64,000 nt of DNA from an uncultured Methanobrevibacter sp. Lineage in GTDB: Archaea; Methanobacteriota; Methanobacteria; Methanobacteriales; Methanobacteriaceae. The DNA lies in assembly GCF_902770715.1 (NCBI RefSeq), contig NZ_CACXTS010000009.1, positions 1 to 64,000 on the forward strand, read 5' to 3'. Within the stretch, counting starts at the first letter, position 1. Each line of letters begins with the position of its first letter. Under the pieces are notes generated by a model, which saw only the letters and a list, made by a program, of their open reading frames with translations, did not search any database and was not told the origin of the DNA. Position numbers and translations under genes: made by a program. Positions 5,702-12,969 of this stretch are shown piece by piece.

Positions 5702-8700
5702 CTACTTACCTTCCATCCTTATTTCATCAATAAGTTTGTCTAAGTTTGCTGCTTTACCGAAATCGGATTTTGCAGGGTCTACACCATCTTCACCGAACAT
5801 GGTTTGGATAACGTTTCCTTGGTTATCGGTAACAAGTCCGGATGGTTTGACTTGCAAGTCTTGTAAAGCGTTTACAAGTCTTCTTTGCATGTAACCGGAT
5901 TGTGCGGTACGGATCGCTGTATCTACAAGACCTTCTCTTCCTCCCATTGCGTGGAAGAAGAATTCAATTGGGTCAAGTCCGGATTTATAACTTGAGTGAA
6001 CAAATCCTTTTGCCTTTGCCCCTAACTCACCTTTCTTGAAGTGAGGCAGGGTTCTGTTGATGTATCCTCTTTCGATACGTCCACCCCTAACTGCCTGTTG
6101 TCCTACACATGCAGTAATCTGAGTAAGGTTCAACATGGATGCCCTTGCACCGGTACGAGCCATTACTACAGAGTGGTTTTCAACAGCCATTACATGGTCA
6201 TATGTATCATCAAGAGATTGCTTACCCATAGTAAGGTAATGTTCAGCGATTTGACCAGACATATCCCTAGCTTCCCCGAGAACTTGCATGATTCTCATCT
6301 CTAAGGTTTCAGCTAAACTTCTACCAGGTAAAGCTTCAAGATAACCTTCTTCATAAGCTTCAACAAGCTTATCTACTTCAGCCATCTTATTGTCTAAATG
6401 CTCATTAATACGGTCTTGAGCTTCTTCAGGAATTTCTTCATCGTTTAAACTGGTTGTAATACCGGTTTTCATGATTCCACAGATTGCTAAGTCAGTGGAA
6501 CGATCTAAGAATTCCTTAGCTCTTCCAGGACCATATTCTTTAACAATTTTATCTAATATTTTACCTGAAAAGGATCCATATGCGCTTTCGTCTATTACAC
6601 CCTGTTCAAGGATACCGTTTTTAATTATAACTTCAGCATCTTCAGGAGGATAGACCTCAGGACATTTGGAAATTTCAGCAGTATAAGATAAGTTTAAGTC
6701 ATTAGGTAACAATAATGAGAACAATTCTTTACCGGTCCATTTGTCACCTTTATCCTTGTAAATGAAAGATTCCTCATCAAAGTCAGGGTCATATTTTAAA
6801 ATCCATTGATTGGATTTGAATTCAGGAATCTTAAGGTGAGATTTTCTGATAATTTGTAAAGCTTGTTCTTCAGTGAATTCGACACCGTCACGGGTTAAGA
6901 GGTATGCTCCACTAATGTGGTCGTGAATAGCACCGATAATTGGTCCTCCGAACCTTGGAGATAAGATGTGTTCCTGTACACGCATCAATGATTTTGCTTC
7001 TGCACGGGACTCGTCAGTTTGGAAAACGTGCATATTCATTTCGTCCCCATCGAAATCCGCATTGTATGGAGGACAAACACATAAGTTTAACCTGAAAGTC
7101 TTGTAAGGTAAAACTCTTACTTCGTGTGCCATCATACTCATTCTGTGAAGAGAAGGCTGACGGTTGAATAAAACCATATCTCCATCTTTCAAGTGTCTTT
7201 CAATAATGTAACCAGGTTCCAAATTCTCAAGGATGAATTCCTTGGTCTCCTCGGTGACTCTTCTTTTGGTGTCACCGTTGATTACGTAGTTTGCACCTGG
7301 GTGAACATCAGGACCGTTTTCGATGTAGGTTCTCATTTCATCGATGTTCCATTCGTTTACGTGGACAGGCACGGTTACTTCTTTAGCAATCATTTCAGGA
7401 ACACCGACCTCATTAATACTGATGTTTGGGTCAGGTGAGATTACTGTACGGGCTGAGAAGTTAACCCTTTTACCTGAAAGGTTGGAACGGAAACGTCCTT
7501 CTTTACCTTTTAACCTTTGAGTCAAGGTTTTAAGTGGTCTGCCTGACCTGTGTCTTGCAGGCGGAACACCACTTGCTTCATTATCAAAGTAAGTTGTAAC
7601 GTGATATTGTAATAATTCCCATAAGTCTTCAACGATTAATTGTGGAGCTCCAGCCTCCATGTTTTCAAGTAAACGTTGATTGATACGTAAGATATCAACA
7701 AGCTTGTGAGTCAAGTCGTCTTCTGATCTTTCACCGGTATCCAAGATAATAGATGGCCTTACAGTTACAGGAGGAACAGGAAGTACTGTTAATACTAACC
7801 ATTCTGGTCTTGCAACTTCAGGGTTTACACCTAAAACAAATGAATCTTCATCAGTGATTTTTTCAAGTCTTTCACGAACTTCAGAAGCAGTTAACTTATA
7901 CTCTTCAATTAATCCGTTGCTGTCAACAATAGTTTTGAAAATATTGTTCAATTGGGTATTGGATAATTCATAAGAAGCATCGATTTCATCATCTGAATCT
8001 AAAATATCAATGATTTCATCAACATTATGCAAATGTTCACACAACAATTCTAAAAGATTGCTGTTAACTAACAATCTGTTTTGGAAATATTCCTCTTTAT
8101 TTTCAACTATTTCTCTTGAAATAGGACCTATTTCCCCAATGCTGATGCTGTCTGCAGACATTTCATCATAGAATACTTTCTTGAATTCGCAAAGCGGGTT
8201 GATGATTTGAACCATTGAAACAGGTTTGTCAAGAATGATTTTATCTTGAATTGTACCACAGTGAGGGCATTCATCACATTCCTTCTTGTTAGCCAATTCG
8301 TAAATCTTTTTGAGAATGCCTCCGATACTTTCATTTTGAGCTTTAAGTTCTAATATCTTATTGGTGTACTCTTTAATCTCATCATCAGTTAAAAGAGCAC
8401 GACCACATTCATTACAAGTAGAACGTAAAATCTTGTGGATGACATCACCAAAACCAACATGGATAACAGGTCTTGCTAACTCAATACTACCGAAATGTCC
8501 TTGACATACTCCTCCTTTGGAACCGCAAGTCCTACATACTAAACTTGGGTCGATAATACCTAAACGAGGATCCATTAAACCTTTATCAATAGGGAAACCG
8601 TCATCACCATAAGTATCAGGATACTCAACAGTGACAACAGACATGTCACGAATATTTTCAGGAGACATTAAACCAAAGTTAATTCTTTCAATTTTTTTAA

Positions 8701-8713
8701 TAAATGCTTTCAT
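5702..8713 (-). CDS. rpoA1: DNA-directed RNA polymerase subunit A' with an internal insertion
   Basis: The catalytic largest subunit. The Mg-binding motif [11 protein letters not shown] is at about residues 551-561. Zinc-binding cysteines are at C60-C63-C70 with H73, and at C100-C103 with C146-C149-C152. At 1003 residues it is about 100-130 longer than the archaeal A' subunits I know (about 870). The extra length falls between the second zinc site and [14 protein letters not shown] (residue 273 on), i.e. about residues 170-270, a stretch rich in Asp, Glu, Leu and Ile. No splicing motifs are seen, so it is an insertion domain, not an intein. It lies between rpoB1 and rpoA2. Confidence 0.95.
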
Positions 8714-8729: not shown

Positions 8730-11171
8730 TTATGCTTTGTCTCCTAAAACTAATTTAGGGAAAATACATAAGCTCTTAAGTTCGTCTAATAATAATTTAA
8801 ATGCGTATGAAATTTCAACAGGGTATGTTTCTACATCTCCACAAATCGGACAGTATTTCTTATTTTTATTCTTATCATATACTGCCAACATACCACAGTT
8901 TTCACAGACAATTGCCTCATATTTGTCGGATTCATCAAGCAATCTTTCTTTCAATGTTAATGCTGCACCGTGTGCAATAAGACAGTCTCTTTCCATTTCT
9001 CCAAATCTTAAACCACCTTCACGTGCTCTACCTTCAGTAGGTTGACGTGTAAGCACTTGGACAGGGCCTCTGGAACGAGCATAAACCTTATCAGTGGTCA
9101 TGTGGTGTAATTTTTGATAATATGCAACACCTACAAAGATTTCAGCATCAATTCTTTCACCGGTTACACCGCTGTATAAGGATTCACATCCTGCAGATTC
9201 AAATCCGTTGTCAACAAGCAATTGTTGGATTTCTTCTTCAAGGGTTTGGTTGAATGGAGTTGCATCAACTCTTTCACCTTCAAGACATCCTGCCTTACCT
9301 GCAACCATCTCAAGCACCTGTCCAATGGACATCCTTGATGGAATAGCGTGAGGGTTTACGATTAAGTCAGGCACAACACCGAATTCTGTGAATGGAATGT
9401 CTTCAGGGGATAATATTAAACCGACAACCCCTTTCTGACCGTGTCTTGATGCGAATTTGTCACCAAATTCAGGTTGTCTTGTATCCCTTACTCTGATTTT
9501 AGCTAATCTGGAACCTTCAACGGTTTCGGATAATAGCACTGCATCAACAATACCTTTTTCACCGTGTCTTACAGTTACGGAAGTTTCTCTTCTTCTGTCA
9601 GCAACACTTCCGAAGTCTTCTTCTAAGAATCTTGGAGGTGAAGTTTTTCCGATTAATACATCACCGGATTCCACGTATGATTCAGGGTTTACTACACCGT
9701 CATCATCCAAGTTTCTGTAAGCTTGTTCGGATCTGTAACCTTTGATGTTTTTGTCAGGCACTTCAAATTTGTCTACTTGACCACCAGCGTATCTTTTTTC
9801 TGATGTGTCGTAAGCTCTGAAGAATGAAGACCTTGCTAAACCTCTTTCTAATGCTGCTTTGTTGATGACCATTGCGTCTTCCATGTTATATCCTTCGTAG
9901 GACATTAAAGCTACAACAAAGTTTTGTCCGGATGGTCTTAAATCGTAATTAGTTGAATCGATAATACGTGTTTTAACAATTGGAGTTTGAGGATGATGTA
10001 ACAAGTGTGCTCTAGTATCGGTACGTAATGCATAGTTAGATACATATAATCCTAAAGCTTGTTTTGTCATACCTGCTTCCATTGTGTTCCTTGGAGAGGA
10101 ATTGTGATCAGAGAATGGAATGATTCCGGCACAAATACCAAGCATTGTAGCTGGGTCTATTTCTAAGTGAGTGTGTTCTTCAGTCAAGTCAGCTAAGGTC
10201 ATAGCAATGTATGAGTTTTCTTCTTCTTCGGCATCCAAGTATTCAATGAGACCGTCATTAATCAAATCGTCCCATTTTAATTTTCCATTAGCCACTTTGT
10301 TTAAGTGTTCTTCTCTTAAAAGAGGAATTCCTTCTTTAACAATGATTAATGGTCTTCTTGCCCTACCTGGATCATTGAATATGTATATCTCATCATTATC
10401 TTCATAATAGGTAATGTTCATTTCATGAGAGATTTCGCCTTTCCTTCTTTTTTCTCTCATTTCTTGAGTGAAGTTGACAGGGTCTTCACAGTAACCTAAA
10501 AGTTCACCGTTAATGTAGATTTTTGTTTTAGGCTTTTCAACTTCAACAGGAGTTTCGATAACAGGTTCAATATCATCTTCATCAACAAGTTCAATTTCAC
10601 CATCATCAGACTCAACAGGTTCAATATCTCCCTCTTCAACAAGTTCAATTTCACCTTCATCAGACTCGACAGGCTCAATATCCCCTTCTTCAACAGATTC
10701 TATTTCGCCTTCATCAGACTCAACATCAGTTTCATCAACAGGAGCAATTTCACCATCATCAGATTCAGCAGTTTCGAAAACAACTTCTTCAGATTCGACA
10801 GGAGCAATTTCGCCTTCTTCGCCTTCTTCAGAAACGCCTTCAATTTCAGCGATTTTTTGAGAAATTAACTCATTTAATTCATTTTTAAATTCAGGCAAAT
10901 CTTTTTTGAGTGATTTCCATTTAGCTCTGCGTTTATCTTTTTTAAATGGAACATTCAAACTGTCATCTTCTTTTAATTCAGGAGTATCAAAGTAATTTTC
11001 AATATGCTCAATTTGTTCTTTAATCTTTTCTAATGTTTCTTCATCAGCAGCTTCTATGGCTTGTTCGATAACATCTTTAACATGATTAAAAGGAGCTAAT
11101 CTTTCAAAACCAAAATAAAAAAATGCCTTTTTCTCATCAGTACTAGCTTTTTTATAATTATCAGACAACAT
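8730..11171 (-). CDS. rpoB1: DNA-directed RNA polymerase subunit B' with a long acidic repeat extension
   Basis: The C-terminal half of the beta-like subunit. The conserved body begins near [12 protein letters not shown] (about residue 217). It includes [10 protein letters not shown] of the active-centre region and the zinc-site cysteines CENCG and CPICG near the C-terminus. Archaeal B' is usually about 600 residues; this one has 813, because residues 1-213 are extra. The extension has a charged helical part (about 1-110), then a strongly acidic part with three 18-residue tandem repeats of the type [18 protein letters not shown] (151-168, 169-186, 187-204) and weaker copies before them. The start at 11171 has a GGTG-type signal (GGAGGTGAA) upstream, 9 bases after the rpoB2 stop. 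Confidence 0.94.
10560..10721 (-). repeat. Three 54-bp tandem repeats inside rpoB1
   Basis: Three in-frame 54-bp units encode 18-residue acidic repeats with the consensus [18 protein letters not shown]. The units differ at several bases, mostly silent or Asp/Glu swaps, so they are an old, selected array and not a simple assembly duplication. Shorter degenerate copies (GEIAPV) continue up to about 10820. Confidence 0.85.
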
Positions 11172-11180
11172 TTCACCTCC

Positions 11181-12734
11181 CTAAATCAACTCTACATCCA
11201 TTTGTTCAATTACATCAATAATTTCTTTATCATCAGAACCTTCTGAAATATTACACATTAAAGCTAAGTTTTTAACCAAACCACAGTTAGGTCCTTCCGG
11301 AGTTTCGTTTGGACATATTTTACCGAATTGTGTTGGGTGCAAATCTCTTGCTTCAAAGTGAGGTTGACTTCTAGTTAAAGGAGATACAACACGTCTTAAA
11401 TGAGAAAGGGTTCCCATATAACTGGTCCTATCTAACAATTGGCTTACACCAGCTCTTCCACCAACCCAGTTACCTGTAGCAATAGCATGTTTAATGTTTT
11501 CAGTTAAAACATCACTACGAACAGCTTGTTTAATGGAAAGTTCTTTACCACGAGAAAGACTTCTTTCAAGTTGATAACTCATATCTCTGGTTAAATTAGT
11601 GAAAGCTACTCTGAATAAGTCTTCCATTAAATCTCCAGATACTCTGAGTCTTTTGTTGGTATAATGGTCCTTATCGTGAGGTTTTCTTTTCTCTTCAATA
11701 ACTTCCAATAACATTTCAGTCATTTCAGCTAAATAAATCGCCTTATCGTAACATTTATCTTCTTCAGTACCCATGTGAGGTAACAAGTAACGATTTACGA
11801 CATCTTTAGCACGTTTGTAACGATAATCTTTTGGCATGTTTTTAGCTACTCTATTACCAATGTATTTAATAGCAGCATCTTGTAATTCTTGTCTTACTTC
11901 ATCTTTAGTTCCATTTCTGATAACAGATTGATCAATGAATTTATTTAATTCCTCTTCAGAAACCTGAATATCATCTGCAATCATCATTTGGAAGTTGTTA
12001 TCTTTAGAAATTTTTGTAACAATTTCTTGGTCTGTAGCTAAACCAAGAGCTCTTAATAGCACTACTAATGGTATTTCCCCAGGAAGGTATGGGAAAGATA
12101 TTCTTAAAAATGCTTTATTTTTACGTGGTTTTTTGTATTCTAAAGTAATTCTAGCTCGGAAACCACTTTTAATTGAAGTAACAACAGCTTTTGCATGTCT
12201 GTCTTCAACTTCACCAATACGTTCAAGAATAATTTTATTTGGAGCGATTTCTTCCATTGTAACAACAGCCCTTTCGGAACCGTTTACAATAAAGTATCCT
12301 CCTAAGTCTTGAGGGTCTTCGTGTTTTTCAATTAATTCTTCATCACTAAGACCGTTGAGATGGCAAATATCTGATTTAAGCATAACTGGCAATTCACCAA
12401 TGTATACTTCTTCCAAAGGATTTTCTGGTTCTCCTTCTTCATTTAATGCCATTTCAAGATACATATCGGCAGAATAGTTTAAATTTCTAAGTCTTGCTTC
12501 AGTAGGGTCAATTTCACTTCTAGAACCATCCGCTTCTTTGTTAGATGGTTTTTCAATGCGAACTTTCCCTGTTTTTAAAGTGTATTTACCATCATCTAAA
12601 CTAATAGGATCAGTAATATCAATAATATTTTGAATCCTATTGTTTACAAAATCATTGTAGGATTTGATATGATGGTCCACTAAATCATATTTATCGAAAA
12701 ATGCATCAACTAATTTCCAATTATTCTCTGTCAT
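11181..12734 (-). CDS. rpoB2: DNA-directed RNA polymerase subunit B''
   Basis: The N-terminal half of the beta-like subunit (protrusion, lobe and start of fork). It is about 517 residues. Recognisable parts are the early GYFIVNGSERAVV motif, QLLDRTSYMGTLSHLRRVVSP and the HPTQFGKICPNETPEGPNCGL motif near the C-terminus. I chose the ATG at 12732-12734 because GGAGG is six bases upstream; the in-frame ATG two codons earlier touches that Shine-Dalgarno. It lies 235 bases after rpoH and 9 before rpoB1. Confidence 0.97.
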   Translation of the reverse strand: MTENNWKLVDAFFDKYDLVDHHIKSYNDFVNNRIQNIIDITDPISLDDGKYTLKTGKVRIEKPSNKEADGSRSEIDPTEARLRNLNYSADMYLEMALNEEGEPENPLEEVYIGELPVMLKSDICHLNGLSDEELIEKHEDPQDLGGYFIVNGSERAVVTMEEIAPNKIILERIGEVEDRHAKAVVTSIKSGFRARITLEYKKPRKNKAFLRISFPYLPGEIPLVVLLRALGLATDQEIVTKISKDNNFQMMIADDIQVSEEELNKFIDQSVIRNGTKDEVRQELQDAAIKYIGNRVAKNMPKDYRYKRAKDVVNRYLLPHMGTEEDKCYDKAIYLAEMTEMLLEVIEEKRKPHDKDHYTNKRLRVSGDLMEDLFRVAFTNLTRDMSYQLERSLSRGKELSIKQAVRSDVLTENIKHAIATGNWVGGRAGVSQLLDRTSYMGTLSHLRRVVSPLTRSQPHFEARDLHPTQFGKICPNETPEGPNCGLVKNLALMCNISEGSDDKEIIDVIEQMDVELI

Positions 12735-12969
12735 GGACATCCTCCAACATTACGTAAACGCAATAAAAATAATTAACTAAATAAAAATAATAAATAATAG
12801 GAAAAACCTAATAACTAATTCATTTAATCATTATTCTTAATTTACTCCTAACTATCTCCTTTAAGATAATTCCTCTCAAACTAAGTTCAAATTTATTATA
12901 ATGAATTTCTAAAAAAACAAAAAAATATCGAAATTATACTATATTAAACTTAATACTCTAAATTTATAT

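Follow-up and report, generated by a model that had tools for sequence, protein, structure and literature searches.

The core subunits of RNA polymerase (RNAP) are some of the most highly conserved proteins. An ordinary archaeal subunit B′ has only 0–12 residues ahead of its conserved body, as counted by a mechanical start rule. Here, we focused on a B′ with 216 residues in that place, which is encoded in a 64,000-nucleotide stretch of DNA (hereafter, the window) from an uncultured Methanobrevibacter sp. (assembly GCF_902770715.1, contig NZ_CACXTS010000009.1, positions 1 to 64,000). The closest described systems are the J-domain proteins (DnaJ/Hsp40, PF00226), in which a His-Pro-Asp (HPD) motif is the trigger for Hsp70. 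Among them, Pam16 (Tim16), the partner of Pam18 (Tim14) in mitochondrial protein import, is a degenerate J protein with a docking role, which has been retained as a regulator of a genuine J protein, according to passages of PMC3806816. The SV40 T antigens have an N-terminal J-domain on a protein that works on DNA, although they are viral replication proteins unrelated to RNAP. Passages of PMC8092207 describe RpoB of Mycobacterium smegmatis as associating with DnaK, which stabilizes it and keeps it soluble, and cite work in which DnaK reactivated E. coli RNAP that had been denatured by heat. The B′ in the window shares residues 217–813, with Rpb2 domains 4–7, with ordinary archaeal B′. The parallel with J-domain proteins comes from sister B′ subunits, whose N termini show an HPD, the helical pattern, and similarity to PF00226. 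In contrast to these proteins, the B′ arm is fused to a core RNAP subunit via an acidic linker, and the copy in the window has no HPD. The likeness to Pam16 is one of kind, with no sequence link shown.

The main finding of this study, which we hold with modest confidence, is that the extension is a J-domain-derived module of B′, whose HPD-bearing form would recruit and activate DnaK on RNAP and whose form in the window is likely to be an HPD-less docking arm. In eight sister genomes, a J-domain with an HPD motif is found at the same position of B′. H40-P41-D42 and its loop are invariant in all eight—these being the rows that define the set and making up eight of the 11 in their clade of the tree described below. 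Pfam DnaJ matches all eight in hmmscan with 18.1–27.7 bits (E 2.9e-6 to 2.9e-3), always below the cut-off of 27.8, and two of the eight are above that cut-off in a six-frame scan (29.3 and 28.0 bits). When compared with the PDB, the HPD-bearing domain matches E. coli DnaJ with an E-value of 3.9e-5 (2.2e-5 by profile), and its profile also matches the J-domain of SV40 T antigen (E 4.2e-5). Its AlphaFold2 (AF2) model, which is predicted and not solved, has a predicted local distance difference test score (pLDDT) of 72, and J-domains occupy the leading Foldseek and VIA rows: the first is DnaK-bound DnaJ in Foldseek (prob 0.99, E 0.12) and Tim16 in VIA. The N terminus of HPD-bearing B′ is therefore predicted to have the J fold. 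The architecture is also seen in a database fragment (P0122) with PF00226 beside Rpb2 domains. Used as query, the J part of B′ returned seven B′-type proteins. On its own, it returned four short proteins, two of them with PF00226, from short contigs; these are probably fragments. The HPD form is available in a sequenced culture, since G014, which matches Methanobrevibacter millerae SM9 (PMC4987999), encodes an HPD-bearing B′; the main text of that genome paper makes no mention of RNAP or DnaJ.

The HPD motif is absent by alignment from the B′ in the window, as it is from 35 of the 43 distinct extensions overall. Scanned against Pfam and NCBIfam, the domain of the window gives only sub-cut-off matches (Chalcone_3 and others), and a profile pooling all 43 extensions found no J-domain in the PDB. 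The relationship emerges when the two forms are compared with each other. hhalign aligns the window type with the HPD-bearing form over 74 columns (E 8.8e-13), and helices I and III are in register. On a profile built from the eight HPD-bearing rows, themselves among the 43 scored, 42 of the 43 extensions outscore the best of 2150 shuffles. The extension in the window is one of them, with 17.6 bits when its shuffles reach at most 9.8, and other HPD-less rows go as high as 31.3 (L019), 33.5 (L004), and 90.4 bits (L030, an intermediate). By these profile comparisons, the domain in the window is homologous to the HPD-bearing J-domain form. It can accordingly be classed, from its sequence, as a J-derived domain without HPD, as can Pam16-like regulators, which is a likeness of kind and implies no claim of common descent.

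The N-terminal extension of B′ is real, selected, and lineage restricted. The long ATG is immediately preceded by GGAGGTGA, a strong Shine-Dalgarno. Because there is no in-frame ATG, GTG, or TTG between codons 92 and 238, and with this Shine-Dalgarno at the long ATG, the usual start codons leave no room for the alternative start near residue 210 raised in the initial annotation. GGAGG, GAGGT, or AGGTG is found at the start of 30 of the 43 distinct extensions and a weaker G-rich sequence in the other 13, and the seven extension-less rows of the window's clade have a GGAGGG- or GGGGG-type sequence ahead of a TTG at the body. The ratio of nonsynonymous to synonymous substitution rates (dN/dS) was estimated for 14 chosen species pairs, with the N-terminal domain taken as residues 1–80 (HPD-bearing) or 1–100 (others). 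The domain has values of 0.10–0.16 in five HPD-bearing pairs and 0.12–0.51 in nine HPD-less pairs, the linker 0.15–0.57 (a value being obtained for 13 of the 14 pairs), and the B′ body 0.009–0.057; the domain is lower than the linker in 11 of 13 comparable pairs. Together, the Shine-Dalgarno, the lack of an internal start, and the between-species dN/dS indicate that the domain is translated and is under selection at the protein level, although the body is held to it much more tightly. An assembly artefact was rejected, since the 43 extensions are distinct, each from a different genome, and purifying selection is seen in all 14 pairs.

Our survey of the genus covered 67 genomes, 63 with a match and 60 with a readable B′ N terminus. 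Of these 60, 43 have the domain (eight with HPD and 35 without), 12 have no extension, four have a short extension of another kind, and one has a fused B; the remaining seven of the 67 have no match or a fragment only. One extension-less genome (G034, 1,853,160 bp) we take to be M. smithii. In a first survey outside the genus, B′ was matched only from residue 180–217 on. The profile of the HPD-bearing form, used on 150 genomes of the order, found eight HPD-bearing and 15 HPD-less B′ frames, all within this genus, and matched no B′ of another genus. The homologues considered were 120 of 2381 and the loci 80 of 323; in this locus set, the named loci of Methanosphaera, M. cuticularis, M. filiformis, and four out of five Methanovirga have little or nothing ahead of the body, and in the fifth Methanovirga locus the B′ frame continues upstream. 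The survey outside the genus and the named loci show that the extension is not present in all archaeal B′ subunits. In a tree of the B′ body and B″ (106 rows, quick search, with Shimodaira–Hasegawa-like approximate likelihood ratio support only), every domain-bearing row is in one 50-row group (support 98). An 11-row clade (support 100) holds the eight HPD-bearing rows, two HPD-less rows, and a short one, and a 39-row clade (support 100) holds 32 HPD-less rows, including the window, and seven without extension. Presence and absence of the domain require four changes on this tree, which could be a single gain with three losses.

Several variations were seen at this locus. B″ and B′ form one continuous frame (fused B) in L068, L071, L079, L083, L094, L109, and others, which are scattered on the tree (six changes); in L100 (Candidatus Methanoflexus mossambicus), the fused B has 1380 residues, with ∼230 extra residues that are not at the B″/B′ junction. 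In L009, L019 (L129), L033 (L113), and L076 (L123), the extension includes one or two carboxypeptidase-regulatory-like β-sandwich domains, which lie after the acidic part and ahead of the body. Elsewhere, L166 (477-1217) and L167 (510-1244) encode a ∼250-residue protein whose central part is a J-like core with HPD, and the same small neighbor adjoins it in both. Neither this family nor a 170-residue family (L168) shows any sign of parentage of the B′ J-domain, their common HPD core being judged by eye.

The chaperones with which such an arm would work are widespread in the genus: DnaK is matched in 67/67 genomes, and a DnaJ-family protein above cut-off in 62/67, arm-less relatives included. 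The window's own genome encodes a DnaJ (G000:C4) and DnaK. We considered whether HPD disappeared because DnaK had been lost; this was not seen, since DnaK is matched in every genome. We propose that the ancestor of the clade would have gained an HPD-bearing J-domain at the B″/B′ split, held at a distance from the polymerase by the linker. The HPD-bearing arm would bring DnaK to its own polymerase, and DnaK thus recruited might help the split B subunit to assemble or help with repair under stress. In the window's clade, the HPD would have been lost and the domain retained to bind a partner, which may be DnaJ, DnaK, or another polymerase-bound protein. Because the domain is still under selection although it no longer has the usual trigger for Hsp70, our best guess, by analogy, is a Pam16-like docking role. 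A broader proposal, tentative and in our view somewhat short of probable, is that in the HPD-bearing clade core RNAP is itself an Hsp70 co-chaperone tethering DnaK, and that in the window's clade the arm has turned into a Pam16-like regulatory dock, coupling transcription to protein quality control. If the HPD-bearing arm works, this would be an enzyme bearing its own chaperone recruiter, and it would offer a direct test of whether Hsp70 acts on RNAP in the cell (in split-subunit assembly, repair, or release of stalled complexes). The HPD clade, the HPD-less clade, and the arm-less close relatives amount to a natural experiment. Besides ordinary DnaK, Hsp70-like matches also occur in open frames of ∼840 and ∼1170 residues (G078:C26, G014:C1:813126-814199, and others).

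A J-domain-derived arm working with Hsp70 has to be weighed against several results that do not favor it. The B′ in the window gives no PF00226 row in Pfam at E up to 1, and Foldseek with its AF2 model returned nothing significant. Within the HPD-bearing clade, HPD was lost twice more (L030 and L057), and at least three losses of the whole arm show that it is dispensable. Spacing might not be the sole task of the acidic linker. No J-domain in an RNAP subunit was found by title and start of abstract among the open-licence papers listed, so the statement in the initial annotation that no description of such a domain was known holds within this narrow scope. The lack of a direct DnaJ match and of a significant fold match, together with the fairly fast sequence change in HPD-less domains (dN/dS 0.12–0.51), are what one would expect if an unrelated helical domain had replaced the J-domain at the same spot in the window's clade. 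This is nonetheless very improbable in view of the profile–profile alignment with its matched helices I and III, the HPD-less sequences that still score clearly on the HPD-bearing profile, and the same position with a similar Shine-Dalgarno context in sister clades.

The other alternatives concern function rather than origin. The HPD-less domain could be a relic, in which selection has kept only an aid to solubility or assembly of the split B and the Hsp70 link is gone in both clades. The repeated loss of the arm and the two additional HPD losses are in line with this possibility, as is the fact that a fast-evolving acidic linker could aid solubility alone, but the invariant HPD and loop and the low dN/dS of the HPD-bearing domain (0.10–0.16) are hard to explain without contact with Hsp70, and we consider it unlikely. 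Less likely still is that function lies in the acidic tail, through contacts with histones, DNA-binding partners, or transcription factors. Residues 111–216 do have a net charge of about −46, and the acidic fraction of the linker is 20–48% across 33 HPD-less rows and 30–45% across the eight HPD-bearing rows. However, the linker varies in length and sequence with a dN/dS of 0.15–0.57, and it is the N-terminal domain that is the more constrained of the two in 11 of 13 pairs. Fast evolution, variable length, and the presence after the linker of PF13620 above cut-off in all four long relatives scanned are more in keeping with a flexible spacer than with a surface for specific contacts. A J-domain-derived arm on such a spacer thus remains our preferred reading.

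The B′ gene is the minus-strand open reading frame (ORF) at 8730–11171, and its features are listed in the table. Pfam identifies an archaeal B′ body from Rpb2 domains 4–7 at residues 218–808 (PF04566, PF04567, PF00562, and PF04560). The extension is taken as ∼216 residues because Rpb2 domain 4 begins at 218 and PDB archaeal RNAP chains align only from residues 191–216 on, in agreement with the initial annotation, which had described 813 residues with a body from about residue 217. The extent it gave, 10560–11171, is that of a real extension but covers residues 1–204 only, as the linker reaches ∼10524. Its charged helical segment (residues 1–110) is present as well; what it missed is the relationship to J-domains, revealed by the eight HPD-bearing sisters. 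In the AF2 model, residues 1–112 have a mean pLDDT of 85, and three helices are predicted in the J-like core (residues 11–19, 28–41, and 44–60). The three 18-residue repeats reported in the acidic segment were recovered by Tandem Repeats Finder (10560–10725, unit 54 bp, 3.1 copies, 87% matches, score 248) and by comparison of the units (10668–10721, 10614–10667, and 10560–10613). Their divergence at silent sites, from which selection had been argued, is only partly borne out, with six synonymous and one nonsynonymous codon differences between units 1 and 2, one and three between units 2 and 3, and four and four between units 1 and 3; selection on the extension as protein is borne out by the better evidence of between-species dN/dS. 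The long B′ start lies 9 bp past the rpoB″ stop, and rpoA′ (5702–8713) comes after B′.

Table. Features of the B′ gene and its upstream neighbor in the window
Feature	Position	Strand	Basis
Conserved B′ body, residues 217–813	8730..10523	-	Pfam Rpb2 domains 4, 5, 6, 7; PDB archaeal RNAP
Acidic linker, residues 113–216	10524..10835	-	48 D/E vs 2 K/R over residues 111–216
Three 18-residue (54-bp) tandem repeats within linker	10560..10721	-	Tandem Repeats Finder and unit comparison
Helical tail of N-terminal domain, residues 63–112	10836..10985	-	AF2 model; predicted helices 80–84, 93–111
J-like core without HPD, ∼residues 9–62	10986..11147	-	Alignment with HPD-bearing relatives, hhalign, profile score, AF2 model
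Shine-Dalgarno GGAGGTGA ahead of long ATG	11173..11180	-	Lies directly before the start codon
rpoB″, 519 aa, directly upstream of B′	11181..12740	-	ORF and Pfam; extension falls at B″/B′ split

The neighboring subunit A′ also shows an addition, of ∼97 extra residues past the second zinc-binding stretch (residues 167–263; 7925–8215, minus strand), which has no Pfam family above cut-off. Within the six-row subclade of the window, all four rows that could be read (L001, L006, L018, and L120) have this insert, which no other printed row shows. In L031, L038, and L051, the A′ frame after B′ has 1147–1156 residues, compared with 866–940 in most other complete ones.
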